A DNA stretch of 64,000 bases from Coriobacteriia bacterium. Its GTDB lineage: Bacteria > Actinomycetota > Coriobacteriia > Anaerosomatales > PHET01. Positions 12,698 through 48,149 of this stretch are shown in pieces. Within the stretch, counting starts at the first letter, position 1; every line of letters starts with the position of its first letter. The translations under genes were made by a program, and so were the position numbers. The notes beneath the pieces are model-generated. The model made no database searches. It saw nothing but the letters and a program-made list of their open reading frames with translations, and was not told the DNA's origin. The stretch covers positions 62,001 through 126,000 of the forward strand of contig JAXMKZ010000030.1 of NCBI GenBank assembly GCA_034370385.1, read 5' to 3'.

Positions 12698-12700
12698 CGG

Positions 12701-14566: not shown

Positions 14567-14587
14567 TTCTTGGTGATTTCACTCACG

Positions 14588-15128: not shown

Positions 15129-15162
15129 GTGTCAGCGCGCCGAGTCGGGTTATCCTGTCTCC

Positions 15163-16239: not shown

Positions 16240-16367
16240 CACCTTCGTCTCCCGCGCGATATACTGAAGAACGCGCCACTTACACGCGTCGTACCATAGA
16301 TCACGCCACCAAACGCAGCAGCCGCCTCACACGCGGCACGAAGCTACAGTTCCACCAGGGAGGGACC

Positions 16368-16643
16368 GTGGAAGTCCTTAAGGTGTCGAGCAAGTCAAAT
16401 CCCAACTCCGTCGCAGGGGCACTCGCCGGCATCGTTCGCGAGCAAGGCGCGGTCGAGATGCAGACGGTGGGAGCGGGGGCTCTCAATCAGGCCATCAAAG
16501 CGATTGCGATCGCACGGGGCTTCATAGCGCCCTCAGGCCTGGAGCTCACCTGTGTTCCCGCCTTCGCAGACATCCTGATCAACGGCGAGGAGAGAACTGC
16601 GATTCGCCTGCTGGTAGAGCCCAGGGACATGAATCGGGTCTGA
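16368..16643 (+). CDS. spoVS: Stage V sporulation protein S family (SpoVS)
   Basis: The 91-residue protein, starting MEVLKVSSKSNPNSVAGALA, is a clear SpoVS, an Alba-like small protein. In endospore formers it affects septation and coat assembly; it also occurs in non-sporulating thermophiles and actinobacteria, where its role is unclear. The GTG start has AGGGAGGG at 16357-16364. The 128-base region before it holds a TATACT at 16260-16265 without a convincing -35 partner. It lies between the GHKL ATPase and a PHP phosphoesterase gene. Confidence 0.93.
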   Translation: MEVLKVSSKSNPNSVAGALAGIVREQGAVEMQTVGAGALNQAIKAIAIARGFIAPSGLELTCVPAFADILINGEERTAIRLLVEPRDMNRV

Positions 16644-16645
16644 CC

Positions 16646-17473: not shown

Positions 17474-17532
17474 CGGGGCGGATCAGGTCCCGAGCTTTGC
17501 TCGCGGACAGCGTGCTACACTCCCAATCCGCT

Positions 17533-18870: not shown

Positions 18871-18931
18871 GTAGGGTCGTCTTCCGGCAGCGCGTATACG
18901 GGAAGGCCGCAGTCCAGGGGGTCTAGCAGAC

Positions 18932-20314: not shown

Positions 20315-20317
20315 CGG

Positions 20318-21265: not shown

Positions 21266-21299
21266 GAGTACCTACCGCACGTCAGGGGGCGCGAACACA

Positions 21300-22175
21300 G
21301 TGGATCTGAACTTCACGAAGATGCACGGGCTCGGCAACGATTTCATCGTCATCGACGACCGTGAGGGAGAACTCGAGCTGGCTCCTGAAGCGGTCGAGTG
21401 GTTCTGCGACAGGAACTTCGGCATCGGCGCTGACGGCCTCATGCTGGTGCGCCCGGCGACCACAGGAGAGGCGGACTTCTCGTGGTGGTTCCGAAACTCC
21501 GATGGATCCGTGGCGGAGATGTGCGGCAACGGGATTCGGTGCTTTGCCAAGTACGTGGTCGACCACGGCCTCGTCTCTGCTGAGTCACGCTCCGTCCGCG
21601 TCGAGACCGATCTGGGAGTCTATGAGGTCGAGATCAGGCGCTCGGATGACGGCCTTGTGGAGTCTGCCACCGTCGACATGGGGGCTCCCATCCTCCGTCC
21701 CGCCGATATTCCCACCACCTTGTCGTGCGAGGACCCTGAGGATCCGGTCATCAACTGCGATCTGAACACCTCGACGGGGCCAGTTTCCGTATCGTGCATC
21801 TCTATGGGCAACCCTCACTGCATCATCTTCGTCGATGATGTGGAGACCGCTCCCGTGTACGAGCTTGGATCCGAGATCGAGATTGATCCCGCGTTTCCCC
21901 GAAAGACCAACGTCGAGTTCGTCCAGATCCTTGGAGACGATCGCATGCGCCTGCGCGTGTGGGAGCGGGGAGTGGGGGAGACGCTTGCCTGTGGGACGGG
22001 TGCTTGCGCAGCGACGGTAGCCACCGCGCTGTCATGCCGGGGAGGACGGGACGCCACTGTGGAACTCCCCGGAGGCGAACTCGTTATCCGGTGGTCTGAA
22101 GACGGACATGTACTCATGACCGGGCCTGCGGAAGAGGTCTTCGCGGGAGTGCTCCGCATTCCCGAGGATGACTGA
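21300..22175 (+). CDS. dapF: Diaminopimelate epimerase
   Basis: A 291-residue enzyme converting LL- to meso-diaminopimelate without cofactor. The two catalytic cysteines are present: Cys75 in MCGNGIRCFAKYV and Cys231 in ETLACGTGACAA. MHGLGNDFIVID at the N-terminus is the usual opening. The GTG start is preceded by AGGGGGC. The last eight bases overlap the start of the next gene. With dapA and the dapL-type aminotransferase in this window it completes the short route from tetrahydrodipicolinate to meso-diaminopimelate. Confidence 0.96.
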   Translation: MDLNFTKMHGLGNDFIVIDDREGELELAPEAVEWFCDRNFGIGADGLMLVRPATTGEADFSWWFRNSDGSVAEMCGNGIRCFAKYVVDHGLVSAESRSVRVETDLGVYEVEIRRSDDGLVESATVDMGAPILRPADIPTTLSCEDPEDPVINCDLNTSTGPVSVSCISMGNPHCIIFVDDVETAPVYELGSEIEIDPAFPRKTNVEFVQILGDDRMRLRVWERGVGETLACGTGACAATVATALSCRGGRDATVELPGGELVIRWSEDGHVLMTGPAEEVFAGVLRIPEDD

Positions 22176-23049
22176 CGTCGACCGCCGCCCTTCACTGGCT
22201 CTGAGCAATGAGGCACTCGCTACGCTTGCCTGTCCGGTCTGCACAGAACCTCTGCACGCCACATCCGGTTCTCTCGCGTGCGAAGCGGGCCACGTTTTCG
22301 ACCTCGCCCGTCAAGGCTACGTGAGCCTTCTTGCGGGAGGATCGACGTCTGACACCGGGGACAGCGCGGATATGGTCACCGCGCGATCGCGGTTCTTGGC
22401 GGGTTCACACTACGACCCCATCGCGGCCGCGGTCGTCGACGCCCTAGCGTCGTCACCAAGCGCAGGCCGTCCGATCGCAGATGCCGGGGCGGGCACCGGG
22501 TGGCTGCTCTCACGGGTGCTGGACGCGGACTCGGCGCGTTGCGCCGGTGTGGCACTCGACCTATCCAAGTACGCGGCGCGTCGGGCCGCCCAAGCGCACC
22601 CACGCATCCTGTCTGTGGTCGCAGACATCTGGAGACCCCTGCCGCTGGCCTCTGGGGTCTTCGACGCGGTGCTGAACTTCTTCGCCCCCAGGAACGCTTC
22701 TGAGTTCGCGCGTGTACTCGCCCCTTCGGGCGTCGTCGTCGCGGTGACGCCGCTGGCTTCGCATCTGTGTGAAGTGCGAACCATCCTACCGCTGCTGCGA
22801 ATCGAGCCAGCAAAGCACGAGCGTCTGGCCGCGGTGATGGCCGACGATTTCGAGATGGCTGTGGATCATGACGTCGCCTTCGCGATGCGATTGAGTCACT
22901 CAGACATCACCGACCTGGTGGCTATGGGTCCGTCCTCGCACCATGTCGACGACGCGGTCATCCGAGAATCGATCACCGGACTGCCCGCCGAGGTCGAGGT
23001 CACCGGTGCGGTACGCGTCTCCATGTTTCGCAAGCGTAACGGCTCGTGA
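22168..23049 (+). CDS. 23S rRNA guanine-N1 methyltransferase, RlmA family
   Basis: A 293-residue SAM-dependent methyltransferase with an N-terminal zinc site formed by Cys22, Cys25, Cys38 and His42 (ACPVC...CEAGH), followed by the RlmA phrase FDLARQGYVSLL and SAM motif ADAGAGTGW near 112. In Gram-positive bacteria the RlmA-II/TlrB members methylate G748 of 23S rRNA, whereas Gram-negative RlmA-I acts on G745; I infer the first but cannot prove the target. The ATG lies inside the last codons of dapF, so translation is coupled. Confidence 0.86.
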   Translation: MTDVDRRPSLALSNEALATLACPVCTEPLHATSGSLACEAGHVFDLARQGYVSLLAGGSTSDTGDSADMVTARSRFLAGSHYDPIAAAVVDALASSPSAGRPIADAGAGTGWLLSRVLDADSARCAGVALDLSKYAARRAAQAHPRILSVVADIWRPLPLASGVFDAVLNFFAPRNASEFARVLAPSGVVVAVTPLASHLCEVRTILPLLRIEPAKHERLAAVMADDFEMAVDHDVAFAMRLSHSDITDLVAMGPSSHHVDDAVIRESITGLPAEVEVTGAVRVSMFRKRNGS

Positions 23050-23135
23050 AGGCCACTTCACCGGGCCGCCACGAGTGTTACCATGTCACGCACGACCCAC
23101 GGTCACCGATGTGATCGTCCACCGATACGAGAAGG

Positions 23136-24305
23136 ATGCTGATCGCCTTGAGGACCGCCACGCGCATCGCGAATCTGCCCCCGTACCTCTTCGCCGAGAT
23201 CGACCGCAAGAAGGAGGAGAAGCAGGCGCAGGGTGTGGACGTGATCTCTCTGGGCATCGGTGACCCCGACATGCCGACGCCTAACCGCATCGTCGATGCG
23301 ATGGCGCAGGCCATACGGAACCCCGGCAACCACCAGTATCCGAGCTACTACGGCTCCAAGCCCTACCGTGAGGCGTGCGCTGAGTGGGTGCGGCGGCGCT
23401 TCGCGATCGAGCTCGATCCCGCCACCGAGGTTCTCGCTCTCATCGGTAGCAAGGAGGGCATCGCCCACCTGTTCCCGGCGTTCGTCGATCCGGGCGACTA
23501 CACGCTCGTGCCCGGCGTCGGCTACCCCGTGTATCACACCGGAGGCATCCTCTCTGGCGGACTGACCCACTGGATGCCGATGAGTGACAGCAACGACTGG
23601 CTGGCCGACTTCGAGTCCACGCCCGCAGACGTGCTAGCCAAGACGAAGATGATGTTCCTGAGCTACCCCAACAATCCGTCGTCAGCCATCGCGCCGGTCG
23701 AATACTTCGACAAGGCGATCGCATTCGCCCGCGAGCACGACATTCTGCTCGTGCACGACAACGCGTACTCGGAGATCGGCTTTGACGGCTACAAGCCGCC
23801 AAGCCTACTGGAGCGCCCGGGCGCGCGCGATGTCGCGATCGAACTGTTCAGCTGCTCGAAGGCGTACAACATGACCGGCTGGCGAGCGGCGTTCGCGGCA
23901 GGCAATCCCGATGCGATCAAGGCACTTGGAACGGTCAAGTCCAATATCGACTCCGGCATATTCACGGCCGTCCAGGACGCCGCGATAGAGGCCATGCTCG
24001 GCCCACAGGACGACGTCGTCGAGATGAGCAAGCTCTACCAGCGCCGTCGTGACCTGGTGATGGACGCCCTCGACTCCATCGGGCTGTCAGCACGCACCCC
24101 GAAGGGCACCATCTACGTGTGGGCTCGCATTCCCGAGGGGACGACATCTGCCGAGTATGCAGGACGCGTGCTTGACGAGGCCGGCGTCATCGTCGCCCCC
24201 GGCAGCGCATACGGACCCGACGGCGAAGGATACATCCGCATCTCGCTGGCAACGCCTGACGATCGTCTCGTCGAGGCCCTCGAGCGGATCAAGACCTCTC
24301 TCTAG
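23136..24305 (+). CDS. dapL: LL-diaminopimelate aminotransferase (DapL-type)
   Basis: This 389-residue fold-type I PLP aminotransferase contains NLPPYLFAEIDRKK, LGIGDPDMPTP, the substrate phrase YPSYYGSKPYREA and the PLP lysine, Lys242, in SCSKAYNMTGWR. These features match DapL, which makes LL-diaminopimelate directly from tetrahydrodipicolinate and glutamate. Other class I aminotransferases remain possible, but dapA and dapF nearby support the assignment. ATG 23136 abuts GAGAAGG; TTG 23148 is better spaced from it and gives a more typical N-terminus. Confidence 0.87.
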   Translation: MLIALRTATRIANLPPYLFAEIDRKKEEKQAQGVDVISLGIGDPDMPTPNRIVDAMAQAIRNPGNHQYPSYYGSKPYREACAEWVRRRFAIELDPATEVLALIGSKEGIAHLFPAFVDPGDYTLVPGVGYPVYHTGGILSGGLTHWMPMSDSNDWLADFESTPADVLAKTKMMFLSYPNNPSSAIAPVEYFDKAIAFAREHDILLVHDNAYSEIGFDGYKPPSLLERPGARDVAIELFSCSKAYNMTGWRAAFAAGNPDAIKALGTVKSNIDSGIFTAVQDAAIEAMLGPQDDVVEMSKLYQRRRDLVMDALDSIGLSARTPKGTIYVWARIPEGTTSAEYAGRVLDEAGVIVAPGSAYGPDGEGYIRISLATPDDRLVEALERIKTSL

Positions 24306-24324
24306 GTGGGCGTACCCTTCTAAC

Positions 24325-25644
24325 GTGACCAAGAACAGGACGTACCCGCATACCGGCGAAGAGCACGACGCGGAACGAGAGCGCGCGATTCTGGTCGGCA
24401 TCGATCGCAACTCCGCCGACTGGCCGCTCGAGGAGTCGCTCGCTGAGCTCACGCGCCTGGCGCACACTGCCGGCGCCGACGTGGTCGGCACCCTGACTCA
24501 ACGCATGGACCGCCCGCACCCGCGCACGTTCATCGGAAGCGGCAAGGCCGAAGAGGTGGCGGCGTTGGCGGCGAGCCAACGCGCCACGGCCGTCATCTTC
24601 GACGATGACCTCAGCCCGAGCCAGCAGGCCAATCTCGAAGGTATCCTTCCTGATGTCAAGGTGCTCGACCGTACGCAGCTGATCCTCGACATCTTCGCGC
24701 TGCACGCCGAGAGCCGCGAGGGGAAGCTCCAGGTGGAGCTTGCGCAGCTCGAATACCTTCTTCCGCGCCTGCGCGGCATGTGGGGGCACCTGACGCGAGA
24801 GCGTCTGGGAGGCGGACGCGGGACACGATTCGGCGCAGGTGAGTCGCAGCTGGAAGTGGACCGCCGTCTGGCCCGAAGGCGCATCTCCGAACTCAAGCGT
24901 GAGCTCCGTGCCGTCTCCGGCGAACGCGAGCTGCAGCGCAAGCGTCGAGCTCGCTCAGGCGTCTTTCGTGTGGCACTCGTGGGTTACACGAACGCCGGAA
25001 AATCGACGCTCCTCAACGCGCTCACGAACGCCGACGTGCTCGCGTATGACATGCTGTTCGCCACACTCGACTCGACGACGCGGCGCCTCGAGATACCGGA
25101 CGGTCGTGAGATCACGATCACCGATACGGTCGGGTTCATTCACAAGCTGCCACACGGTTTGGTCGAGGCTTTCAAATCCACACTCGACGAGGTCAATGAG
25201 GCAGACCTGCTTCTCCAGGTCACCGACGCGGGCGCGCCACAACGTGATGCCCAGATGCAGTCCGTGCGCGAGGTCTTGCAGGAGATCGACGCGCACACAC
25301 GTCCGAGCGTTGTGGTGTTCAACAAGATCGACACGCTGTCAGACGAGGAGCGCGTGGCGCTAGCCAGACGCCATCCCACCGCGGTCTATTGCTCGGCGCT
25401 CAACGTCGAGGGCGTGGACGGCGTGATCGATCGCATCGCCGACGAGGCGGCGCGCGACAGCGTCACGCTCACCTTGGTCGTGCCCTACACGCGCGGTGAG
25501 ATGGTTCGGCTCGCGCACGAACGAGCCCAGATACTGTCCGAGCGTCACGGCGAGGATGGCACCCAGCTTGTCCTGCGGGTGCCGCCGGTTCTAGCTCCGC
25601 GCTTCGAGGAGTTCCGGGTTGCCCCAGCCGACGAAGACGGCTAG
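24325..25644 (+). CDS. hflX: GTPase HflX
   Basis: A 439-residue ribosome-associated GTPase that splits stalled or stressed 70S ribosomes. The N-terminal HflX domain includes [13 protein letters not shown] and the glycine-rich [18 protein letters not shown] loop. The G domain has GYTNAGKST at 220-228, [11 protein letters not shown] and NKID. I took GTG 24325 as the start because upstream codons only overlap the aminotransferase gene. Its stop codon overlaps the lexA stop from the other strand by four bases, so the two genes are convergent with no room for a separate terminator. Confidence 0.93.
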
Positions 25645-26300
25645 ATCCTCCGAAACAGCGCGACGACCTTTCCGAGGATCACCACGTCACGAACGTAGAT
25701 CGGCTCCATAGCCGAGTTCTCGGGCTGAAGCCGGATACGGTCTGCCTCGCGGAAGAATGTCTTGACCGTGGCCTCCGGCTCTCCAGAGAACTCGTCGGCA
25801 ACCATGGCGACGACGATCTCGCCGTTGGAGGCGGTCTCCTGCTGCTTCACCACGACGAAGTCCCCGTTGAGGATACCGGCCTCGATCATCGAGTCACCGC
25901 GGACCTTCAGTATGAACGTCCGCTCGCCTGAGAACTCAGCCGGAAGGGGGAGCGTGCCCTCGATGTTCTCGGATGCGAGAATCGGCTGACCGGCGGCGAC
26001 CTGGCCTACGATCGGCACCGCGTGGACCTGGCCGAAATCGATCGCCGAATCGGTGTCGCGGAAGTCAAAGACCTCCAAGGCCCGCGGCTTCGATGGATCG
26101 CGGCGGATGAACCCCTTCGATTCGAGCGCAGAAAGATGCGAATGCACCGTCGACGAGGACGATAGTCCGACAGCATCTCCGATCTCTCTCACGCTCGGCG
26201 GATACCCTTTGCGATGAATCTCCGCGCGGATGAAGTCCAAGATCTGCTGCTGGCGCTTGGTCAGTTCCCGCTGGTAAGCCAATGCGGTCTCCCTCGACAT
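25641..26300 (-). CDS. lexA: LexA repressor
   Basis: The 219-residue SOS repressor. The N-terminal winged helix (about 11-75) starts [14 protein letters not shown]. The self-cleavage site is Ala103-Gly104 in GQVAAGQP, and the catalytic dyad is Ser137 (RGDSM) and Lys180 (ATVKTFF). It is the only - strand gene in the left half of the window. The ATG at 26300 may be replaced by TTG 26285, which has AGGGAG upstream and gives a more usual length. Three LexA boxes lie in the divergent region shared with the yneA-like gene, so it should repress itself. Confidence 0.96.
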
Positions 26301-26346
26301 CGAACGCCTGTACGCAGGGAGTGTAACGCTTGTTCCCTGTGTAGTG

Positions 26347-26360
26347 CAAACACGCGTTCG
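26347..26360 (-). promoter_or_regulatory. LexA box proximal to lexA
   Basis: Read on the - strand this is CGAACGCGTGTTTG, matching the CGAAC-N4-GTT pattern with one deviation. It lies 47 bases upstream of the lexA ATG and is a likely autoregulatory operator. Confidence 0.65.
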
Positions 26361-26370
26361 CTATTTCTAC

Positions 26371-26398
26371 TTGACACCGAACAGGTGTTCGTTACTAT
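26371..26398 (+). promoter_or_regulatory. Promoter of the yneA-like gene with SOS box
   Basis: TTGACA (26371-26376) and TACTAT (26393-26398) are 16 bases apart. The spacer holds CGAACAGGTGTTCG at 26378-26391, identical to the box in the recA promoter. This is the best promoter match seen in the window. Confidence 0.85.
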
Positions 26399-26403
26399 GT
26401 ATA

Positions 26404-26417
26404 CGAACGTACGTTCG
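26404..26417 (+). promoter_or_regulatory. Second LexA box, perfect palindrome
   Basis: CGAACGTACGTTCG is a perfect 14-bp palindrome of the LexA operator type. It lies immediately downstream of the -10 element and would cover the transcription start of the yneA-like gene. Its centre is 26 bases from the neighbouring box centre. Confidence 0.85.
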
Positions 26418-26493
26418 CATTAGTGATCTGGCGATGTCAGACCCTCAGCGTAGGCTGACCGCACACGATTACTCGAAGCAGGAGGTAGGACGT

Positions 26494-26838
26494 ATGGACC
26501 GGAGACGTCACTCTGACCGGAGCCCCCGAGCGCGGGCGGTGCCCGTGCTGAATCGCGATGTGGCCGTGGCGACTGTCATGATCGCTCTGCTTATCGCCGC
26601 CGTGCTGGCATCGAAGTCTCCAACCGTTGACTTTGCGACGACTTCATCGGTGACCGTCCAGCCTGGCGATACCCTGTGGAGCCTAGCTAGCGCTCACCCT
26701 GTGCGAGGTCTCGATACCGCACAGTGCGCCAGCGCGATCGCCTCGCTCAATCAGATGTCCGGCTCGGCACTGATCGCCGGGAGCGTCGTACACGTCCCGT
26801 CGTCTGTCTCACCCGGAGCGGCTGTGGCCATGCGTTAG
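26494..26838 (+). CDS. LysM-domain membrane protein, YneA-like SOS division inhibitor candidate
   Basis: The 114-residue protein has a basic N-terminus, one membrane helix at about 24-42 and a LysM domain beginning VTVQPGDTLWSLAS near 58. This is the layout of YneA, the SOS-induced cell-division suppressor of Bacillus, which is also divergent from lexA. Sequence similarity outside LysM is not evident, so the function rests on layout and context. ATG 26494 has GGAGG at 26481-26485; the longer open frame upstream would run through the operators and is not credible. nrdR follows on the same strand. Confidence 0.8.
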   Translation: MDRRRHSDRSPRARAVPVLNRDVAVATVMIALLIAAVLASKSPTVDFATTSSVTVQPGDTLWSLASAHPVRGLDTAQCASAIASLNQMSGSALIAGSVVHVPSSVSPGAAVAMR

Positions 26839-26960
26839 CCTGGCTTTCTCGGGCGCCGAACTCTCACTGCATAGGATATCCGGGCTCAAGGTGACACGAT
26901 CGCTTCAGCCAATGCCGAAGGTTCACGCCCGCTGCAATGCGCTTTCTCGATGACCTTCTG

Positions 26961-26989
26961 TTGAAGCCCTATATCTTGTGTGCTAACGT
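26961..26989 (+). promoter_or_regulatory. Candidate nrdR promoter with NrdR-box-like sequence
   Basis: GCCCTATATCTTGTGT at 26966-26981 agrees with the NrdR-box pattern acaCwAtATaTwGtgt at 13 of 16 positions. TTGAAG (26961-26966) and TAACGT (26984-26989) could be weak -35 and -10 elements 17 bases apart, which would place the box in the spacer. Only one box is seen, whereas NrdR sites usually come in pairs. Confidence 0.4.
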
Positions 26990-27020
26990 CGCAGCTGACC
27001 TAGATGTGGGGGTGAGCTGC

Positions 27021-27467
27021 GTGCGTTGTCCCTTCTGTGGACATGGTGAGACCAAAGTCGTCGACTCTCGTACCTCGGAGTCGCAAGACGCCATCAGGAG
27101 ACGGCGCGAATGCCTCGAATGCACGGAGCGGTTCACCACCTATGAGCGTCGCGAAGAGATGCCTCTCATGGTGCTGAAGAAGGATGGTGCACCTGAACCG
27201 TTCGACCGAGCCAAGCTCATGCGCGGCCTGTTCGTTGCTACCGCCAAACGCGGTGTCACTCCCGATGAACTCGAATTCCTGATAGACGACATCGAGTCTG
27301 AACTTCACAACTCGTTTCGCTATGAGGTAGACAGCCTCACATTGGGTGACATGGTCCTTCAGCGCCTGCTCGTGCTCGACAAGGTCGCCTACGTGCGCTT
27401 CGCGTCAGTCTACAAGGAGTTCCAGGACCTCGATGAGTTCACTCGAGAGCTCAAGGGACTCGCCTAG
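27021..27467 (+). CDS. nrdR: Transcriptional repressor NrdR
   Basis: This 148-residue regulator senses ATP/dATP and represses ribonucleotide reductase genes. Zinc-ribbon cysteines are Cys3, Cys6, Cys31 and Cys34 (CPFC and CLEC), followed by the ATP-cone domain from about residue 48 (MVLKKDGAPEPFDRAKL). I chose GTG 27021 because it gives the family N-terminus beginning at the zinc ribbon and has GGGGGTGA just upstream; a longer in-frame start at 26937 would add 28 unrelated residues. It is followed three bases later by dut, another deoxynucleotide-pool gene. Confidence 0.94.
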   Translation: MRCPFCGHGETKVVDSRTSESQDAIRRRRECLECTERFTTYERREEMPLMVLKKDGAPEPFDRAKLMRGLFVATAKRGVTPDELEFLIDDIESELHNSFRYEVDSLTLGDMVLQRLLVLDKVAYVRFASVYKEFQDLDEFTRELKGLA

Positions 27468-27469
27468 CC

Positions 27470-27901
27470 ATGGACCTCCCCATCCGTCTCCTCGACAGTG
27501 GACTCCCGATGCCCGCGTACGCGCACGAGGGCGACGCTGGACTCGATCTCTTCGCAGCTCACGACACCTGTATCGAGCCGGGCGAACGCGTGTTGATCGG
27601 AACCGGGGTCGCTGTCGCTATACCTGAAGGTTATGCCGGTTTCGTCCAACCGCGCAGCGGTCTCGCCCTGCGCTCGGGGCTCTCGTTCGTGAACACGCCG
27701 GGCCTCATCGACAGTCACTACCGCGGCGAGATAAAGCTGATTGCGGTCAACCTCGATCCGGTGGATTCGATTCGAGTCACCAGAGGCCAGAAGGTCGCAC
27801 AGCTTGTGGTGCAGCCCGTGGTTCGGGTCGTTCCGGTCCAGGTCACGGCCCTCGACCCAACCACCAGAGGGGAGGGGGGCTTTGGCAGCACCGGCACCTA
27901 G
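27470..27901 (+). CDS. dut: Deoxyuridine 5'-triphosphate nucleotidohydrolase
   Basis: A 143-residue trimeric dUTPase with all five motifs: EGDAGLDL near 22, PRSGLALRSGL near 63, NTPGLIDSHYRGEI near 77, RGQKVAQLVV near 104 and the C-terminal GEGGFGSTGT. It hydrolyses dUTP to dUMP and keeps uracil out of DNA. ATG 27470 follows the nrdR stop after two bases. Its last 20 bases overlap the beginning of the Nudix gene in another frame. Confidence 0.96.
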   Translation: MDLPIRLLDSGLPMPAYAHEGDAGLDLFAAHDTCIEPGERVLIGTGVAVAIPEGYAGFVQPRSGLALRSGLSFVNTPGLIDSHYRGEIKLIAVNLDPVDSIRVTRGQKVAQLVVQPVVRVVPVQVTALDPTTRGEGGFGSTGT

Positions 27902-28349
27902 CGGTCCTCGCATTCGTGTGGCCGCGGCCATCCTGATCGACGATCGCCTCGTCCTCGTGCGACATCGTGCAGCACGCGCCTCCTACCACCTGCTTCCCGG
28001 TGGGGGCGTTGGCTATCGAGAGACCCTTGAAGACGCGCTCGTGCGTGAAGTCGAGGAAGAGACCGGCCTGGCGGTCACGCTCGGTGAACCGCTGCTGATC
28101 TCCGACACGATAGACCCCAGCGGTCCACGCCACGTCGTCAACATCACGTTCTCTGCCACTGTCGTCGGCGGCGCCATCACGGACCGACCATCTGACGCAC
28201 AGGTAGAAGCGGTGGAACTGGTCCGGCTTGATGCGCTCACCGGTCTAGACCTGAGGCCGCCAATCGCCGGCCAGCTACGGGCGATGCTCAGCGGACAGAG
28301 CGTTGAACCCACGCGCTATTTGGGCTCACTGTTCACGACCGGGTCGTGA
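27882..28349 (+). CDS. Nudix hydrolase
   Basis: The 155-residue protein contains a canonical Nudix box in GGGVGYRETLEDALVREVEEETGL, consistent with G-x5-E-x7-REVEEE-x-G. Substrate unknown; pairing with dut suggests clean-up of non-canonical nucleotides. I set the start at TTG 27882 because GGAGGGGGGC lies immediately upstream and no other start fits the frame before the conserved IRVAAAILID strand. It overlaps dut by 20 bases. A perfect hairpin spans its stop codon. Confidence 0.85.
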   Translation: MAAPAPSGPRIRVAAAILIDDRLVLVRHRAARASYHLLPGGGVGYRETLEDALVREVEEETGLAVTLGEPLLISDTIDPSGPRHVVNITFSATVVGGAITDRPSDAQVEAVELVRLDALTGLDLRPPIAGQLRAMLSGQSVEPTRYLGSLFTTGS

Positions 28350-28353
28350 ACAG
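28329..28353 (+). terminator. Perfect 11-bp inverted repeat at the Nudix stop codon
   Basis: CTGTTCACGAC (28329-28339) pairs perfectly with GTCGTGAACAG (28343-28353) around a three-base loop. It may terminate the dut operon, though only TTT follows. A TTGACA begins at 28355, so it could instead be an operator for the permease gene. Confidence 0.45.
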
Positions 28354-28477
28354 TTTGACATAAGTCGACCGGCGGTCGAACGATATGCTCCACGAAGGGG
28401 GTGACGGCTCCGCGCTCAGCATTGCTCTAACAGCGGCAAGAGGCAGACTCACGAAGCAATGACAGAAGGGTGGATCA

Positions 28478-29902
28478 ATGGAGGGGTTCTTCAAGTTCTC
28501 TGAGCGCGGGACCGATCTCAAGACTGAGATCATCGCTGGCCTCACAACGTTTCTGACCATGGCCTACATCATCTTTGTGAACCCGGGCATCCTATCGGCC
28601 GCCGGGGTTCCGTTCGCGGGTGCCGCAACAGCTACGGCGTTGGGTGCCGCACTCATGTGCATCGCCATGGGCGTCATCAGCAACCGGCCTTTGGCACTGG
28701 CCTCGGGTATGGGCCTGAACGCGGTGGTCACCTTTTCGATCATCGGGTTCGCACAGGCCAACGTACCGTGGCAGGTGGGCATGTCGGTCATCTTCGTCGA
28801 AGGTATCCTGATTTTCCTGCTGGTACTGTCCGGGCTTCGTGAGTCGATCATGAACGCGATTCCACTCGACCTGAAGCGTGCCATCGGTGTGGGAATCGGC
28901 CTCTTCATCACGGTCATAGGCCTCATTGAGGGCGGAATCATCACCCCGAACCAGGCTACGGTTGTCTCCTTGGGTGACTTCACCAAGCCCTACGTCTGGG
29001 TGGCCCTTATCGGACTGTTCGCCATCCTCGCGTTCATGGCGCTCGGCATCAAGGGCGACATCCTGTGGGGCATCTTGGTTGCGACGGGCGCCGCGTTGCT
29101 GCTCAACGTCACCTCGCTGCCAAAGGCCATTGTCGCCAACCCTGACTTCTCCACGTTCATGGCGCCCTTCCAGCAGGTAGAGGGCGGAATGGCCATCACC
29201 CAGATCTTCACTCCGGCCCTGTTGTTCGCGGTGTTCGCGGTCATGCTGTCCGACTTCTTCGACACCATGGGTACCGTGATCTCAGTGGGCGAGCAGGCCG
29301 GATTCACTGACGCCGAGGGCAACGTCCCCGGTGTTCGCAACATTCTGTTGGTGGACTCAGCGGCCGCCGCCACCGGTGGCCTGTTCGGCGCCAGCTCGAT
29401 CACGACCTACATCGAGTCGGCTGCTGGCGTGGCTGAGGGCGGTCGTACTGGCCTGACCGCCATCGTTGCGGGCGTGCTCTTCGCGATTGCGGCGTTCTTC
29501 TCGCCCGTCGTTCAGATGATCGGTGGGGGATTCGCGGTCGTCAACACCGAACGGTTCGGGAGCTTCCTCGCTGCTGGCTTCACCGTGCCCGATGGCACCA
29601 GTTTCTTCTCGTTCCCGATCACAGCGGGCGCGCTCATCATCGTCGGCTTCCTCATGATGAAGGGTGTTCGCGAAATCGACTGGAACAACCTTGAGGACGC
29701 GTTCCCCGCATTCATGACGATCGTCGGTATTCCGCTGACGTACAACATCAGCTGGGGCATCGGCCTGGGCTTCATCAGCTACATCGTCATCAAGATCTTC
29801 CACGGCAAGGTCAAGGATATCCACCCGCTTATGTGGGTGGCGGGTCTAGCTTTCCTCGGCGCGTTCCTTCAGGGGCCGATCCTCAGCCTCATCACCGGCT
29901 AA
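28478..29902 (+). CDS. AzgA-type (NCS2) purine permease
   Basis: A 474-residue transporter with about 12-14 hydrophobic segments. EIIAGLTTFLTMAYIIFVNP at 13-32 and GMGLNA near 77 are hallmarks of the AzgA/PbuG group of proton symporters for adenine, guanine or hypoxanthine. The ATG has AAGGGTGG upstream. The 128-base leader contains no recognisable purine riboswitch. Purine salvage genes apt and hpt occur on the other strand at 44.7-45.8 kb, which fits uptake of purine bases. A strong hairpin separates it from the next permease. Confidence 0.9.
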   Translation: MEGFFKFSERGTDLKTEIIAGLTTFLTMAYIIFVNPGILSAAGVPFAGAATATALGAALMCIAMGVISNRPLALASGMGLNAVVTFSIIGFAQANVPWQVGMSVIFVEGILIFLLVLSGLRESIMNAIPLDLKRAIGVGIGLFITVIGLIEGGIITPNQATVVSLGDFTKPYVWVALIGLFAILAFMALGIKGDILWGILVATGAALLLNVTSLPKAIVANPDFSTFMAPFQQVEGGMAITQIFTPALLFAVFAVMLSDFFDTMGTVISVGEQAGFTDAEGNVPGVRNILLVDSAAAATGGLFGASSITTYIESAAGVAEGGRTGLTAIVAGVLFAIAAFFSPVVQMIGGGFAVVNTERFGSFLAAGFTVPDGTSFFSFPITAGALIIVGFLMMKGVREIDWNNLEDAFPAFMTIVGIPLTYNISWGIGLGFISYIVIKIFHGKVKDIHPLMWVAGLAFLGAFLQGPILSLITG

Positions 29903-29912
29903 CAACAGCTCA

Positions 29913-29941
29913 AGGCCCCCGGTTCAACGAGCCGGGGGCCT
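29913..29941 (+). terminator. Hairpin between the two permease genes
   Basis: AGGCCCCCGG (29913-29922) pairs perfectly with CCGGGGGCCT (29932-29941) around a nine-base loop. The tail TCTC is weakly T-rich. It probably terminates or attenuates transcription between the permeases. Confidence 0.7.
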
Positions 29942-29965
29942 CTCACAACGGACAAGGAGGGTGAA

Positions 29966-31306
29966 GTGGCAGCCAGTCAAGACGTCGTCCAAACCGACGA
30001 AGTGATGCCGCTATCGCGCGCAATCCCGCTCTCGCTTCAGCACCTGATGGCCATGTTCGGCGCGACCGTTCTCGTCCCGATTCTCACGGGCCTGGACCCC
30101 GGCGTAGGACTGATGACCTCGGGCATCGGGACTATCCTGTACTTGATCTGCGTCCGCAACAAGATTCCGAGCTACCTAGGCTCGAGCTTCGCCTTCATCG
30201 CTCCGATCATCGCAGTCGGTGGCGGACCAGGTGGCAAGAATATACCGGCTGCGCTCGGTGGACTTGTTGTCGCCGGCGTTGTCTACATGGTCGTGGCAGC
30301 CGTAGTCAAAGCATTTGGAACCGGCTGGCTCAACAGACTGCTTCCACCGGCACTCGTGGGCTCGATCGTCGTAGTCATCGGACTAGGGCTGTCGGCCGTG
30401 GCGGTGAAGATGTCCATGTTCCCGTTTGCGGACCCGACTCAGGGCTTCGATCCCAAGCTCATCGCTGTGGCCACGATCACCCTGGCTGCAGCCATCGTGT
30501 TCTCAAGCTTCTTCAAAGGCTTTCTCAAGACGATACCGGTGCTCATGGGCATCGTCGTCGGCTACCTTGTGTCCATTCCGCTCGGCCTCGTCAGCTTTGA
30601 AGGTATCCAGAGCGCCTCATGGATCGGGCTGCCCACGCTGACGTTCCCGGTCTTCGAGCTTGACGCGATACTCATCATCGCCCCAGTGGCGGTCGTGGTC
30701 ATCATCGAGCACATCGGGCACCTTCTGGTCATCAACGAGATCACGGGCAAGGACTTCACCCCGATGCTTCCCGAGTCGCTGTTCGGCGACGGCCTGGCGA
30801 CCGCGATCTCGGGCGCCGTCGGCGGCACTCCGTCGACCACGTACGCTGAGAACATCGGCGTCATGGCCGTTACTCGCGTCTACGCGACTCAGATGTTCTG
30901 GTTCGCCGGTGCGTTCGCCATTGTCATCGGCGGCTTCGTGCCGAAGTTCAACGCGGCGATCAGCTCGATTCCCACGGCGGTCATGGGCGGGATCTCGCTG
31001 CTCCTGTTCGGCTTGATCGCTTCCAGCGGAATCCGCCTGCTGGCCAACAGTGGTATCGATTTCAGCCACAGCCGGAATCTGATTCTCTCAAGTGTGGTAC
31101 TGGTCATCGGCATCGGCATGGAGACTGGCGGGTTCGCCATTCCGCTGGGCAAGTACACCGTTCCGGGTATGGCACTCGCTGCCTTCGTCGGAATCCTGCT
31201 CAATCTGGTACTACCCAAGGAGAGCACAGGCCTGGCCGTCGACTCGCCGGCCTTCGTCGCCGAAGTGCAGGCTGAGGCTGCAGAGGCGGCAGACGCACGA
31301 GCGTAG
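29966..31306 (+). CDS. UraA-type (NCS2) uracil/xanthine permease
   Basis: A 446-residue member of the NCS2 branch that includes UraA and PbuX. The N-terminus SLQHLMAMFGATVLVPIL and the SSFAFIAPI motif near 72 are typical, and EHIGHLLVINEITGKDF near 251 carries the conserved Glu of the substrate site. Uracil and xanthine transporters are hard to separate by eye. GTG 29966 follows AAGGAGG at 29954-29960. It is flanked by hairpins on both sides, so it may be made mostly from its own message. Confidence 0.9.
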   Translation: MAASQDVVQTDEVMPLSRAIPLSLQHLMAMFGATVLVPILTGLDPGVGLMTSGIGTILYLICVRNKIPSYLGSSFAFIAPIIAVGGGPGGKNIPAALGGLVVAGVVYMVVAAVVKAFGTGWLNRLLPPALVGSIVVVIGLGLSAVAVKMSMFPFADPTQGFDPKLIAVATITLAAAIVFSSFFKGFLKTIPVLMGIVVGYLVSIPLGLVSFEGIQSASWIGLPTLTFPVFELDAILIIAPVAVVVIIEHIGHLLVINEITGKDFTPMLPESLFGDGLATAISGAVGGTPSTTYAENIGVMAVTRVYATQMFWFAGAFAIVIGGFVPKFNAAISSIPTAVMGGISLLLFGLIASSGIRLLANSGIDFSHSRNLILSSVVLVIGIGMETGGFAIPLGKYTVPGMALAAFVGILLNLVLPKESTGLAVDSPAFVAEVQAEAAEAADARA

Positions 31307-31329
31307 CAGCTAGGCACGAGTCCGACGTT

Positions 31330-31372
31330 TGACGCCCCCGGTTGCCATAAGGATTGGTGGCCGGGGGCGTCA
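31330..31372 (+). terminator. Strong hairpin after the uracil/xanthine permease
   Basis: TGACGCCCCCGG (31330-31341) pairs perfectly over 12 bp with CCGGGGGCGTCA (31361-31372), and wobble pairs extend it inward. It lies just before the ribosome binding site of the small lipoprotein gene. Confidence 0.75.
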
Positions 31373-31391
31373 CTTAGGGAGGCGAACATAC

Positions 31392-31628
31392 ATGCGATTC
31401 CGCCGCAGGATCACACTCGTGGTCATGTCCGCGGCTCTGGCGCTCATCCTGACCGGGTGTTCGACATCCGGAGGCGACGACAAGAACGACTCGCAGGCCC
31501 AGCCGGCGACGCCAGCCACGGGTGGAATCACCGAGCCGATCGACGACGCGCAGGATGCCGCCGACGACGCCAACGATGTGATACAGCAGCAGCAGGACGC
31601 GGTCCAGGATCTTGAGGACGGGGACTAA
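31392..31628 (+). CDS. Small secreted lipoprotein of unknown function
   Basis: This 78-residue protein has a basic start, a hydrophobic signal segment and the lipobox LTGC near residue 20, so it should be lipidated and exported. The mature part is acidic, Gln/Asp/Ala-rich and probably helical or disordered (DDAQDAADDANDVIQQQQDA). No family is recognised. ATG 31392 has AGGGAGG at 31376-31382. It is the last + strand gene before the switch in gene direction, and a GGGACT/AGTCCC palindrome spans its stop codon. Confidence 0.75.
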   Translation: MRFRRRITLVVMSAALALILTGCSTSGGDDKNDSQAQPATPATGGITEPIDDAQDAADDANDVIQQQQDAVQDLEDGD

Positions 31629-31651
31629 GTCCCGTGACGACACCACGCGAT

Positions 31652-31673
31652 GCCCAGAGAAGGCCTGCTGGGC
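31652..31673. terminator. Weak hairpin in the convergent spacer
   Basis: GCCCAG (31652-31657) and CTGGGC (31668-31673) can pair around a ten-base loop. No T-run follows. It may help end transcription of the lipoprotein gene. Confidence 0.3.
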
Positions 31674-31693
31674 GTGGGTGGAGACTGACGCAT

Positions 31694-31721
31694 ATGTCTG
31701 ATAATGCATCTTATGTCATAT
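31694..31721. other. Candidate chromosomal dif site (XerC/XerD recombination site)
   Basis: The sequence has an 11-bp left arm ATGTCTGATAA (31694-31704), a 6-bp centre TGCATC (31705-31710) and an 11-bp right arm TTATGTCATAT (31711-31721). This is the 11-6-11 layout of bacterial dif, with the conserved inner GATAA and TTATGTCA core of the XerC- and XerD-type arms. The arms are partly palindromic (7 of 11 positions). It lies in an AT-rich intergenic spacer exactly where + genes meet - genes. No xer gene or integrated element is adjacent. Assignment is by pattern and position only. Confidence 0.7.
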
Positions 31722-31791
31722 TGATATCGAAAGACTTATCCCCTGCGAGTCTCGTGTCCCCTGGATACACCCGCTCAGCGGAGCCGAGCGT

Positions 31792-32127
31792 TCAGGCGGT
31801 CGGGTCTTCGTCGGTGTCCGGCGCCGGGGACGGCGTCAGGTAGGCGTCCTCGAACTGGGCTTTCGTCATCTCCAAGAGATCCTCTTGAGCGCGCTCGAGG
31901 ATCGCCTCAGCCTCGGCGCGATCTTCGAGTACACCCACGGAGACCACGGCCTCGTAGTCGTCCAGCCGAACGGCCTCGATTCTCCACCGCTCAGACTCCT
32001 GCGGCTCCACTTCAGGAGGCGTCCGGTACAAGATATCGTCGCGCCACTCGAAGTCGGCGGCATCAGTCGAGTCGACGCGCGTGAGCCTTACCCGCCAGAA
32101 ATCATCAGCTGCACCGATGATCTTCAT
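31792..32127 (-). CDS. Conserved-looking hypothetical protein
   Basis: The 111-residue protein begins MKIIGAADDFWRVRLTRVDS and ends in an acidic Pro/Asp-rich tail. It lacks a signal peptide or membrane helix and has a mixed alpha/beta composition with a helical EDRAEAEAILERAQEDLLEM segment. I do not recognise it. ATG 32127 was chosen over a longer frame because that frame overlaps the upstream SH3 gene; AAGGA lies about 12 bases before it. It is the last gene of a three-gene set with the SH3 and membrane proteins. Confidence 0.6.
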   Translation of the reverse strand: MKIIGAADDFWRVRLTRVDSTDAADFEWRDDILYRTPPEVEPQESERWRIEAVRLDDYEAVVSVGVLEDRAEAEAILERAQEDLLEMTKAQFEDAYLTPSPAPDTDEDPTA

Positions 32128-32131
32128 GCCG

Positions 32132-32572
32132 TTACTTGTCCTTTGCCTCGGTGTAGTTAGGGTTCGATGACACCCAGCCCTTGGAGCCATCTGAAGACCG
32201 AACCTCGTACCACCCGGACCTCTTGGATAGCAGCGTGAGTTTCTCGCCCTTCCTCAGACCGCGGATGGGCGTGGCATCGGCCTCAGGCTTAGTGCGGAAG
32301 TTGAGCCCGTCGATGAGCACCACGACTGTACCGGCGGCGGCTTCCGGTTTGGTTGTGGGCTTGGGCTTCGCCTCGTCACCAGCCTCGTCCTCCCCTTCTT
32401 GCGCTGGCGGGGGGGCGGTCGTGTCAACAGAGGCGGCTCCGCTTCCAGCCTGCGCGGCCTGGCTGCTGGCGTCGCGATACTCACTCCACCAGCCGCGTAC
32501 TGTCAGTACAAGCACAAGCAGAACCACTGCTGCAGCAATGCCCTTGGCGTACTTGAGTGTCTCTGCGCTCAC
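32132..32572 (-). CDS. Membrane-anchored bacterial SH3-domain protein
   Basis: A 146-residue protein with one N-terminal membrane helix (about 10-26), a Pro/Glu/Lys-rich linker and a C-terminal SH3b domain from about residue 82: LNFRTKPEADATPIRGLRKGE, then WYEVRSSDGSKGWVSS. Such domains usually bind peptidoglycan or cell-wall peptides outside the membrane. Partner unknown. Its first codons overlap the stop of the next upstream gene by four bases, indicating an operon with the membrane protein at 32569-33117. Confidence 0.8.
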   Translation of the reverse strand: MSAETLKYAKGIAAAVVLLVLVLTVRGWWSEYRDASSQAAQAGSGAASVDTTAPPPAQEGEDEAGDEAKPKPTTKPEAAAGTVVVLIDGLNFRTKPEADATPIRGLRKGEKLTLLSKRSGWYEVRSSDGSKGWVSSNPNYTEAKDK

Positions 32573-34504: not shown

Positions 34505-35242
34505 TCAGCTACCGCTTGCCACGTCGCCACCAAGATAGATGCGACTCACACTCTCATCGCCCAGTAACTCCGTGGACGTGCCTTCGAGCACCATACGCCC
34601 TGTGCGCATCACGTACCCGCGTTGCGCGTGCTTCAGCGCCAATCGGGCATCCTGCTCCACCAAGAGCACCGTGACTCCATCAGCGAGCAGGGCGTCAACC
34701 GCCGCGAATATCTCGGCGATGACAAGCGGAGCGAGGCCGAGAGACGGCTCGTCAAGCAGTAGCAGCCGTGGCGAGGACATAAGCGCACGACCGACCGCGA
34801 GCATCTGCTGCTCCCCTCCGGACAGCGTCTGCGCAGGCTGTGTCGCCCGCTCCTTGAGCACGGGAAACAGCTGCTGGACGCGCTCGCGCCGTGCCGCAGA
34901 ACCGGATCGGCCTCCCGAGACGCTGTATGCACCCAGCTCAAGGTTCTCAGCCACGCTCATGCTGCCAAACAGCAGGCGCCCCTCAGGCACCAGAGCGATG
35001 CCCTCCCGAACGAGCCGCTCAGGCTTCATGCGCGTGATGTCCGCTCCTGCGTACAACACCCTCCCTGCGCTTGCAGGCAGAAGCCCGACGATGGACTTGA
35101 GCAGGGTCGACTTGCCCGCGCCATTTGCGCCGATGAGTGCAACGAGCTCGCCCTCGTGCACTTCGAGATCGATACCGTGGAGAACGGCCGAGCGACCGTA
35201 GCCGGCCATGAGCTCTTCGACGCGAAGGAGCGGATCAGCCAT
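34505..35242 (-). CDS. livF: Branched-chain-type amino acid ABC transporter ATPase LivF
   Basis: A 245-residue ABC ATPase with Walker A GANGAGKST near 36, the signature TLSGGEQQML near 135 and Walker B LLLLDEPSLGLAP near 156, plus the LivF-type VEQDARLALKHAQRGYVM. ATG 35242 was chosen over an ATG 18 bases upstream because GAGGAG lies at a better distance and the protein then starts at the first strand. It overlaps the end of livG by eight bases. It powers uptake of hydrophobic or aromatic amino acids with LivG, LivH, LivM and the binding proteins. Confidence 0.94.
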   Translation of the reverse strand: MADPLLRVEELMAGYGRSAVLHGIDLEVHEGELVALIGANGAGKSTLLKSIVGLLPASAGRVLYAGADITRMKPERLVREGIALVPEGRLLFGSMSVAENLELGAYSVSGGRSGSAARRERVQQLFPVLKERATQPAQTLSGGEQQMLAVGRALMSSPRLLLLDEPSLGLAPLVIAEIFAAVDALLADGVTVLLVEQDARLALKHAQRGYVMRTGRMVLEGTSTELLGDESVSRIYLGGDVASGS

Positions 35243-36005: not shown

Positions 36006-36973
36006 GATCGCCCCCCTCCCCCGAGGCGCCGCAGCAGGCCTGCGACCCCCTGCGGGGCGAGAATGACCACGAGCACGATCGCCAACCCGTACAGGTCCTC
36101 TCGATACGATTGGACGACACGCGCGACGTCGCGAGAAAGGCCCGGAACGACGGCGTCGGAGTACTGCAGCAGGGTCAACGCGACCGCGGCGACCACCGGC
36201 CCCGCCAAGGACCCGGTACCACCGATGACCGCCATGGCCAGAAACGTCACCGATGCTCCGACCGTGAAGATGCTCGGCGATACGAACCCGACGACACCGG
36301 CGTACAGCGCGCCCGAGAGACCGGCGAGCGCAGCGCTCATGACGAACACTCTTACCTTCACCCCAACGGTATCAACGCCGCTCGCCACCGCACCCAGCTC
36401 GCTCCCATGGAGCGCCCTCATCGCCCGACCGGGGCGCAGCATCGTCATGTTCCACGCAACCAGCAGCGCGACACCGACAACCCCCCAGACAAGCCAATAG
36501 AGAGCGGCCGGTTCGCGGAACTCAAACGACCCGATCACGGGAAACGGGATACCGGAGAACCCATCGACACCGCCCGTGAGCGGCTCCGCCTCGACAAAGG
36601 CGAGGGTCATCAGTTCCCCGAAGCCAAGCGTCGCCATTGCGAGGTAGTGTCCCTTGAGCCGCAGACTGGGAAGGGCAAGGATGAGTCCGCCTAGCGCAGC
36701 GACAAGGCCCGCCGTGGCAAACCCGACGATCCACGGCAACTCGAGTCGCACGGTGAAGATCGCGCAGGTATATGCGCCAAGGCCCACGAAGGCCGCGTGG
36801 CCGAGCGACACCTGTCCTGCGTAGCCGAACAACAACGACAAGCCGACGATCACGAGCACGTTCATACCGACGAAGGTAAGAACCTTGAGCAGGAAGCGAT
36901 CGTCAATCAGCAGGGGTCCTGCTGCCACGACTCCGGCCGCTACGAACGGGATGATGAGCTGAGCCTTCTTCAT
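36002..36973 (-). CDS. livM: Branched-chain-type amino acid ABC transporter permease LivM
   Basis: A 323-residue permease with about ten hydrophobic segments. It contains FGYAGQVSLGHAAFVGLGAY near 49 and LRLKGHYLAMATLGFGE near 105, both LivM hallmarks, and the cytoplasmic loop GSELGAVASGVDTVGVKVRVFV that couples to the ATPases. I start it at ATG 36973 (MKKAQLII); the frame is open further upstream but that part shadows livH. It begins five bases after the livH stop. Confidence 0.93.
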   Translation of the reverse strand: MKKAQLIIPFVAAGVVAAGPLLIDDRFLLKVLTFVGMNVLVIVGLSLLFGYAGQVSLGHAAFVGLGAYTCAIFTVRLELPWIVGFATAGLVAALGGLILALPSLRLKGHYLAMATLGFGELMTLAFVEAEPLTGGVDGFSGIPFPVIGSFEFREPAALYWLVWGVVGVALLVAWNMTMLRPGRAMRALHGSELGAVASGVDTVGVKVRVFVMSAALAGLSGALYAGVVGFVSPSIFTVGASVTFLAMAVIGGTGSLAGPVVAAVALTLLQYSDAVVPGLSRDVARVVQSYREDLYGLAIVLVVILAPQGVAGLLRRLGGGGRS

Positions 36974-39142: not shown

Positions 39143-40354
39143 TTACTCGGCGAGCTTGAAGGCACCGTCCTCGATGACGTAGAAGGTGAGGTCGTCCTTC
39201 GTGAGCCCGTTGTGGTCGGTGGGCGACATATTGAACGTGCCGCCGATACCAACGAATCCGGAGGTCTTCTCAATCTCGTCGCGGATAGCAGCAGACGTCA
39301 GATCTCCCTGGACGCGCCTGGCGGCCTCGACAATGAGATACAGCGAGTCGTACGCGTGCCCGGCGAACGTGGACGGCTCAACGCCCGTGGCCTCCTTGAA
39401 ACGTGCGATGAACTCGGTGGCGACCACATAGCCCTCGGTACCTTCACCGTAGGCCTCAGGGATGAGCACCTTTCCGGCCGCGATCTTCATGCCGTTGGCG
39501 GCCTCGCCGGCACCCTCAGCAAACTCCTTGCGTGCATTGCCGTGGCTACCGTAGACGGGCAGCTTCATGCCAAGGTCGTTCGCGTTTTTGACGACGGTAG
39601 CCGCCTCTTTGCCTGCGGTCCACATGACGAGGGCGCCCGCATCGGTACCCTTGATCTTGGTGAGTTGGGCCGTCATGTCGGTGTCGCCGGGATTGAACGT
39701 CTGGCTCGAGACTATCTCGATTCCCGCCTTGGGTGCTTCGGCCTCGAGCACAGCAAGGCCGTCCTTGCCGAAGCCGCCAGAGTCGGTGATGACTCCGATC
39801 TTCGTGATTCCGGCGGCCTTGATGGCCTCAAGAGTGGTCGGGACAACGATGGTATTCGACCACGGAGTCGCGAACACGAGTGGGTCGAACTCAGCGGTGA
39901 TGACGGTTCCGCCTGCCATCGAGACCTGGGGGACGCCGGCGCGGTTGATGTCCCCACGCATCGCCATGGTCTGTCCGGTGCCGGTGGCACCGATGATGGC
40001 GAGAACCTGGTCTTGATCGATGAGCTTGCTCGTCGCGGCGACGGCCTTGGCCTCGTCGGTGGCGTCATCCTCGATGATGAGCTCGACCGGCCTGCCGTTG
40101 ATACCCCCGTCAGCGTTGATGCGCTCCACTTCCATCTCGAGCGCGGCCTTCTCAGGCTCCCCCAGACCGGCATACGTGCCGGTCACCGAAACGACGGCGC
40201 CGATCTTGACCGGCTCGCCACTTACTTCACCGCTCCCACCGGCCTCGGGCGCCGGTTCACTCGGAGCGGAGCACGCCACTAGCGTGACCGCTAGCGCTGC
40301 GGACAACGCCGCCACCAACACCGCGATCGATAGCCTTAGAACTCTTCCTCTCAT
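39143..40354 (-). CDS. Periplasmic-type amino acid binding lipoprotein (LivJ-like), copy B
   Basis: A 403-residue paralogue of copy A, with lipobox LVAC near 26, a Ser/Glu/Gly-rich spacer and the binding fold starting VKIGAVVSVTGTYAGLGEPE. ELIIEDDATDEAKAVAATSKLI and GATGTG-TMAMRGDI are nearly identical in both copies. ATG 40354 has AGGAGGT seven bases upstream. It is the first transporter gene in the transcript after the ACT gene and is followed by the strong hairpin, which would favour its expression over downstream genes. Confidence 0.9.
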   Translation of the reverse strand: MRGRVLRLSIAVLVAALSAALAVTLVACSAPSEPAPEAGGSGEVSGEPVKIGAVVSVTGTYAGLGEPEKAALEMEVERINADGGINGRPVELIIEDDATDEAKAVAATSKLIDQDQVLAIIGATGTGQTMAMRGDINRAGVPQVSMAGGTVITAEFDPLVFATPWSNTIVVPTTLEAIKAAGITKIGVITDSGGFGKDGLAVLEAEAPKAGIEIVSSQTFNPGDTDMTAQLTKIKGTDAGALVMWTAGKEAATVVKNANDLGMKLPVYGSHGNARKEFAEGAGEAANGMKIAAGKVLIPEAYGEGTEGYVVATEFIARFKEATGVEPSTFAGHAYDSLYLIVEAARRVQGDLTSAAIRDEIEKTSGFVGIGGTFNMSPTDHNGLTKDDLTFYVIEDGAFKLAE

Positions 40355-40828: not shown

Positions 40829-41415
40829 AGTCCGCACTCCCCCTTCAGGCATACCTCTCGGCCGAGTTCAAATGCACGCAGATTGGCTTCGACGGTCTTG
40901 GGCGGAACCCTTGAGGCAATGACATCGATCCAGGCGCTCTTGTCGAACTCCAGCCCGACCGAGAGCGCCCCCATGAGCACGACGTTGGCGGACTTGGGGC
41001 TGCCCGCGCGACATGCGAGCACGTCCGCATCGACGAAGATCGCTCCCTCATGCTCAAGGGCAGCTTCCAGCCCATGGACTGCGCGCACGTCGCCCGTCAG
41101 AACAGGCAACGGCTGAATGGCCCGCGGGTTGACCAGCAGACGCCCGCCGAGCTTCACGTAGTGGACACGGCGCATCGCTTCGATGATCTCGAAGGCCACG
41201 AGGTGATCGACATCGCCGGGGTCGGTCACCGGTGAGTGGACTTCATCGCCGAATCGCACGATGGTATCCACGCTGCCGCCGCGCTGCGCCATGCCGTGCA
41301 CCTCGGACAGCTTCACGGCCATGCCGGCTGCCGCGGCGACCTTGGCAAGCAGGTCGGCCGCGAGAATCGTCCCTTGTCCACCCACGCCGCACAACATCAC
41401 CGTGGTTGCAGGCAC
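40825..41415 (-). CDS. iorB: Indolepyruvate:ferredoxin oxidoreductase, beta subunit
   Basis: A 196-residue subunit of the gamma-type 2-oxoacid oxidoreductase family: VMLCGVGGQGTILAADLLA at the start, and SEVHGMAQRGGSVDTIVRFG near 40, which are diagnostic. With IorA it oxidises arylpyruvates to arylacetyl-CoA and reduces ferredoxin. GTG 41415 is placed seven bases after GGAGG; a GTG six bases earlier is too close to that site. It follows the iorA stop by two bases. Confidence 0.92.
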   Translation of the reverse strand: MPATTVMLCGVGGQGTILAADLLAKVAAAAGMAVKLSEVHGMAQRGGSVDTIVRFGDEVHSPVTDPGDVDHLVAFEIIEAMRRVHYVKLGGRLLVNPRAIQPLPVLTGDVRAVHGLEAALEHEGAIFVDADVLACRAGSPKSANVVLMGALSVGLEFDKSAWIDVIASRVPPKTVEANLRAFELGREVCLKGECGL

Positions 41416-48057: not shown

Positions 48058-48149
48058 CTCTCTCCTCCCCTAGTGGCGCATGTCAGATTGTATCGCATGG
48101 CACCGACAATGGCTCGACGTGAGGTCAAGCCTTATCCTGCGCGTGCAGA

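Follow-up and report, generated by a model that had tools for sequence, protein, structure and literature searches.

Canonical dif sites of the XerCD type, as described in E. coli, B. subtilis and Actinobacteria, are 28 bp long with an 11-6-11 layout and conserved inner arms, and occur once per chromosome in the terminus region of genomes that encode XerC/XerD and FtsK (PMC3025954). The distances between dif and the skew switch have been surveyed in Proteobacteria and Firmicutes, with outliers of at most 3% of the genome (Kono et al. 2011, PMC3025954). A 2018 survey found that the skew switch tracks dif and not the antipode, with a mean separation from dif of 13 kb that also holds in asymmetric chromosomes, and its authors asked for a different mechanism (PMC6199493). 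In P. aeruginosa PAO1-UW, a recent inversion has set dif apart from the replication midpoint; the KOPS follow dif, and the GC skew still switches at dif (PMC6199493). KOPS switch at dif, which need not equal the terminus (PMC13342612). In Gemmatimonadota, the terminus region contains a strongly strand-biased block whose genes nearly all run toward the terminus, and the sign change of the skew falls together with the gene switch there (PMC11237797). At issue is what the strand composition bias of the terminus reflects: replication, or segregation through dif and FtsK.

We analyzed a 64-kb window, comprising bases 62001–126000 of the 151-kb contig C30, from the 2.69-Mb, 65-contig assembly of an uncultured Coriobacteriia bacterium. 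Read from the sequence, the 28-mer ATGTCTGATAATGCATCTTATGTCATAT has an exact 11-6-11 layout and is flanked by a small lipoprotein ORF and the first minus-strand gene, which converge on the spacer that holds it (Table 1), as the original prediction had it. The site resembles the canonical ones in its length, layout, inner arms, single occurrence, terminus location and encoded partners; unlike them, its center across the order reads TRYATC with an invariant C at position 17. Its core, GATAATN5TTATGTCA, has one copy without mismatches in the 2.69-Mb assembly, where a search for a second copy returned a runner-up with two mismatches and 33 further matches with three. Within the window, it is the sole match at up to three mismatches (0.64 expected).

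Table 1. Features of the 64-kb window, with positions counted from its first base.
Feature	Position	Strand	Remarks
Left flank	1..31693	+	genes nearly all + (dif-ward); synonymous-site skew lagging-type
FtsK DNA translocase with gamma domain	3375..5816 (about; start codon unrefined)	+	~26 kb left of dif
RGGGGAG toward dif	11490..11496	+	
RGGGGAG toward dif	12824..12830	+	
RGGGGAG toward dif	14633..14639	+	
RGGGGAG toward dif	21974..21980	+	
RGGGGAG toward dif	25946..25952	+	
RGGGGAG toward dif	27868..27874	+	
Uracil/xanthine (NCS2) permease	29966..31306	+	conserved left neighbor of dif
Small lipoprotein ORF	31392..31628	+	last + gene before dif; read from sequence
dif, 28 bp	31694..31721	+	XerC-type arm ATGTCTGATAA, center TGCATC, XerD-type arm TTATGTCATAT
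GGGG (CCCC on +)	31740..31743	-	~19 nt beyond the XerD-side arm; oriented toward dif
First - gene right of dif	31792..32129	-	position conserved in 32 relatives; no assigned family
RGGGGAG toward dif	32390..32396	-	
RGGGGAG toward dif	34811..34817	-	
RGGGGAG toward dif	36016..36022	-	
RGGGGAG toward dif	40157..40163	-	
RGGGGAG toward dif	40837..40843	-	
RGGGGAG toward dif	48065..48071	-	
RGGGGAG toward dif	54241..54247	-	
RGGGGAG toward dif	57306..57312	-	
RGGGGAG toward dif	62219..62225	-	
RGGGGAG toward dif	63571..63577	-	

The motif recurs with at most one mismatch in 41 of 61 relatives. A relaxed pattern learned from relatives is present, essentially as one copy each, in 48 of 52 genomes when the whole order is counted and in 47 of 51 when the near-complete ones are. 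When the orthologous spacers were aligned, per-column conservation covered the 28 bp and a single T before them and went no further; the flanks are otherwise unalignable. A search for an extended dif with further conserved flanks yielded only this T and a position-locked CCCC, which 15 of 41 genomes carry with its start 19–21 nt from dif (mean 0.34 per position) and which is possibly a contact for FtsK gamma or an accessory protein beside XerD. Rfam and tRNA scans of the 64-kb window found nothing. Among IMG/VR contigs, the dif pattern occurs in a single 25-kb entry, IMGVR_UViG_3300035701_000263 (L315:27-51), which starts 26 nt from the site and may represent either ordinary chromosome or an element inserted at dif.

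The surroundings of the site are equally stable. The order hflX-lexA-nrdR-permease-dif-(minus-strand genes)-paaK is fixed in most genomes; depending on the gene, the left block from hflX to the permease and the right block of the small minus-strand gene and paaK are retained in 18–37 of 40 relatives, and the orientation of the dif motif relative to this synteny is constant throughout. A trigger factor identity for the left neighbor of dif was dropped, and the gene is an NCS2 permease. Further left, still close to dif in the terminus region, lies a block of core genes, rnj-ftsK-rodZ-(MiaB/RimO-like)-cinA-rny-dapL-hflX-lexA-nrdR (window 1032–29902). The genome encodes one FtsK with a gamma domain (2.6e-27), on the left side of dif, and ftsK lies 25–28 kb from dif on that same side in all six genomes checked. 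The proposed search for xerC and xerD returned two genes of the XerC/D type, on contigs C30 and C23; because both proteins score above the PRK00283 cut-off and slightly below both the XerC and the XerD equivalog cut-offs, either may be XerC and the other XerD.

Coding sequence left of dif points toward the site over about 90% of its length in most genomes and, in the window's own genome, over 100% for most of the 93 kb to the left. As in Gemmatimonadota (PMC11237797), the terminus region here holds a block of genes nearly all pointing at the terminus, with a polarity switch; unlike in Gemmatimonadota, the skew sign change and the gene switch are separated in this order. The slope of the local GC skew does change at dif, from between about 0 and −0.02 on the left to about −0.07 on the right. 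The cumulative GC skew of contig C30, however, peaks at ~49 kb, 45 kb left of dif, and not at dif, where its turning point had been expected. The original prediction stood in part: no better 28-mer was found elsewhere, and the skew does change at the site, but this change stems from gene polarity and not from the replication strand.

We located the replication-strand switch through synonymous sites on contig C30 and on stretches of relatives, chiefly in G014, the only complete chromosome profiled, of which about two-thirds was sampled (1,838,614 bp; dif at 693,097; dnaA at 1,465,795; antipode of dnaA at 546 kb). Its total skew is positive to ~560 kb, near zero until dif and negative beyond. 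The GC and TA skews at synonymous sites switch at ~560 kb, which is ~130 kb left of dif and near the dnaA antipode. Across the chromosome, the sense-strand GC skew at fourfold sites is +0.03 to +0.04 for leading genes and −0.10 to −0.13 for lagging genes. The plus-strand genes between 570 and 693 kb have a fourfold GC skew of −0.123 (references: +0.034 for leading and −0.132 for lagging) together with a low TA skew, and are thus of the lagging type; the few minus-strand genes there have a skew of −0.019 and a high TA skew, nearer the leading type. A discriminant trained on the chromosome arms (82% and 75% in cross-validation) called 6 of 57 plus-strand genes and 4 of 4 minus-strand genes in this interval leading. 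The original prediction had forks meeting at dif on the premise that genes are co-oriented with replication. That part was not supported: dif lies in the terminus region, and the switch lies ~130 kb to its left in G014 and ~60–90 kb to its left in a second relative, G042 (switch at ~300–330 kb, dif at 389 kb). All 93 kb to the left of dif are lagging-type in the window's genome (−0.10 to −0.20), and the minus-strand genes to the right range from −0.04 to −0.08; this puts the switch past the end of the contig, over 90 kb left of dif.

The same asymmetry is present in the 10-kb flanks of dif in 40 of 41 genomes (mean −0.162 vs −0.035), and a Wilcoxon p value for this comparison overstates independence because the genomes are related; the near-dif asymmetry is not clear in G002 and G021. 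The TA signal alone is weak and is indistinct in the window's genome. Because its synonymous-site skew is of the lagging type despite its plus-strand genes, the left flank is probably replicated leftward, head-on to transcription, as the rnj to nrdR block also appears to be. By these skews, dif is not the place where the replication strand bias turns, and replication appears to run against the genes that lie from the switch to dif. Skew records long-term history and may differ from the present fork meeting point. We sought the fork-trap proteins Tus and RTP and detected neither, which fits a free meeting of forks near the midpoint. Coincidence of dif with the skew switch is a usual trait of dif sites, not a strictly defining one. 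The G014 offset of ~7% (dif at 693 kb, switch at ~560 kb, 1.84 Mb) exceeds the ≤3% of the earlier survey (PMC3025954). As in PAO1-UW, dif lies apart from the replication midpoint while the polar motif described below follows dif; unlike in PAO1-UW (PMC6199493), the skew switch here is found close to the midpoint instead of at dif, and the whole order shares the arrangement.

An improbable alternative is that forks do meet at a genuine dif and that the left-flank skew is an effect of gene content, produced by well-expressed genes of the ftsK-rny-hflX kind that prefer C-ending codons. The left block does consist of conserved core genes, and the use of C in NNY codons is higher there. When tested, this expression or codon explanation was disfavored: the GC and TA skews move together while the use of G in NNR codons is not raised, the few genes on the opposite strand shift in the opposite direction, hexamers of the replication type flip in all sequence, and the position of the switch near the dnaA antipode would have to be a coincidence.

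With the two polarities set apart in this way, words tied to replication become distinguishable from those tied to dif. We picked RGGGGAG in G014 and then tested it within 10 kb of dif in the 40 other genomes, where 352 copies point toward dif and 16 away (left, 154 plus and 4 minus; right, 12 plus and 198 minus). The polarity agrees in 40 of 40 genomes and persists at 196:13 after similar sequence contexts are collapsed. It switches at dif regardless of gene strand, with toward-to-away counts of 27:0 in minus-strand genes on the left, 15:2 in plus-strand genes on the right and 49:1 in spacers. De novo, GGGGAG is the most polar hexamer, and substitutions weaken its polarity. The word is also commoner near dif, with densities of ~0.6 per kb within 4 kb and 0.33 per kb at 4–10 kb, and in the G014 interval its density is about twice that of the arms. 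Of the 20 copies in the window, 16 point toward dif (Table 1), and this total shows no over-representation relative to shuffled sequence (21 expected). The case for a KOPS is consequently built on polarity and on how dense the word is close to dif. Because the over-representation usual for KOPS is absent, our claim is that RGGGGAG works like KOPS, as a putative member of the class.

Like the KOPS GGGNAGGG of E. coli and Vibrio and the SRS of B. subtilis, RGGGGAG is a G-rich polar word that switches at dif and is denser nearby; it differs from both in its letters. The E. coli KOPS itself is also polar in the 40 genomes, at about half the frequency of RGGGGAG (163:17). The word GAGAAGGG, which we take to be the SRS of B. 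subtilis, is unsupported as the guide motif of this lineage, as it is hardly polar (18:11). Other Actinobacteria and Coriobacteriia with the same dif type have RGGGGAG at 44:3 toward dif. In the distant phyla Omnitrophota, Armatimonadota, Acidobacteria and Bacillota with this dif type (L159-L238), the word is mostly dif-ward, with few copies each. In Thermoanaerobacterales/Tepidanaerobacter, also of this dif type, a tRNA gene, apparently tRNA-Trp, with a GGGGAG/CTCCCC stem lies ~60–200 nt from dif (L166, L191, L225, L232), and the opposed RGGGGAG pairs seen beside dif in Thermoanaerobacterales are the two ends of that stem. We found no paper in the open-access literature linking GGGGAG with FtsK, and no description in the literature of an FtsK guide motif for this group.

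G-rich words with strand bias are common on leading strands, and RGGGGAG might accordingly be a Chi-like or other replication-strand motif instead of a KOPS. The orientation of Chi follows replication. Near ~560 kb in G014, replication-type hexamers flip, and words of the GCGAGG type are flipped across the interval (65:121); RGGGGAG keeps its polarity there, remaining dif-ward (26:2), and flips at dif itself. We regard a replication-strand motif as distinctly improbable. From its distribution, RGGGGAG is likely the KOPS of this lineage, which FtsK would read.

Dif-like sites are used by phages and genetic islands (PMC5357621), but it is extremely improbable that the 28-mer represents a chance match, a degenerate site or the attachment site of a mobile element (IMEX), with the working dif elsewhere, given its single copy, the lack of an adjoining integrase, its order-wide syntenic conservation and the convergence of the KOPS upon it. 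The identification of the 28-mer as the chromosomal dif, at which XerC and XerD would bind and recombine, is strongly supported because the site is unique, its conservation is order-wide and limited to 28 bp, its synteny and orientation are fixed, its partner genes are present and a polar motif converges on it.

We consider it very probable that the whole locus is explained by a dif, an FtsK guided by RGGGGAG and forks that meet ~60–130 kb left of dif. XerC and XerD would bind the two arms of dif, while FtsK would load on RGGGGAG, the proposed KOPS, and pump DNA toward dif from both sides until its gamma domain activates XerD, upon which chromosome dimers would be resolved at the septum. The forks would usually meet on the side of the permease and FtsK, ~60–130 kb away from dif and close to the midpoint opposite oriC. 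Because they would meet left of dif, the other fork would pass through dif and replicate the left flank against the direction of its genes. The sequence, uniqueness, conservation and synteny of the site, its partner genes, the motif polarity and the skew signatures are direct observations; XerC/XerD action at dif, FtsK guidance and septal resolution make up the standard pathway, which we infer from its parts.

Two accounts of the separation fit the data. Unequal growth of the arms or an old rearrangement may have moved the midpoint, after which the skew re-equilibrated while the gene order stayed. Alternatively, the direction of genes may be actively maintained by FtsK traffic. History is the simpler reading. 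It is possible, though doubtful, that FtsK-driven segregation rather than replication holds gene direction near dif: over ~60–130 kb, nearly all genes would be kept aimed at dif, in line with FtsK pumping and against the course of replication, and would have been for as long as the order has existed.

The dif itself is ordinary; the interest lies in the lineage's likely KOPS and in the long-lived split that sets the replication skew apart from dif, the KOPS and the gene polarity. RGGGGAG is a newly recognized and concrete candidate for the FtsK guide motif of the group. This order presents a long-lived natural separation in which replication-type skew goes with the midpoint opposite oriC, and gene polarity and the KOPS-like motif go with dif. 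Such a separation makes the question of replication versus segregation testable.
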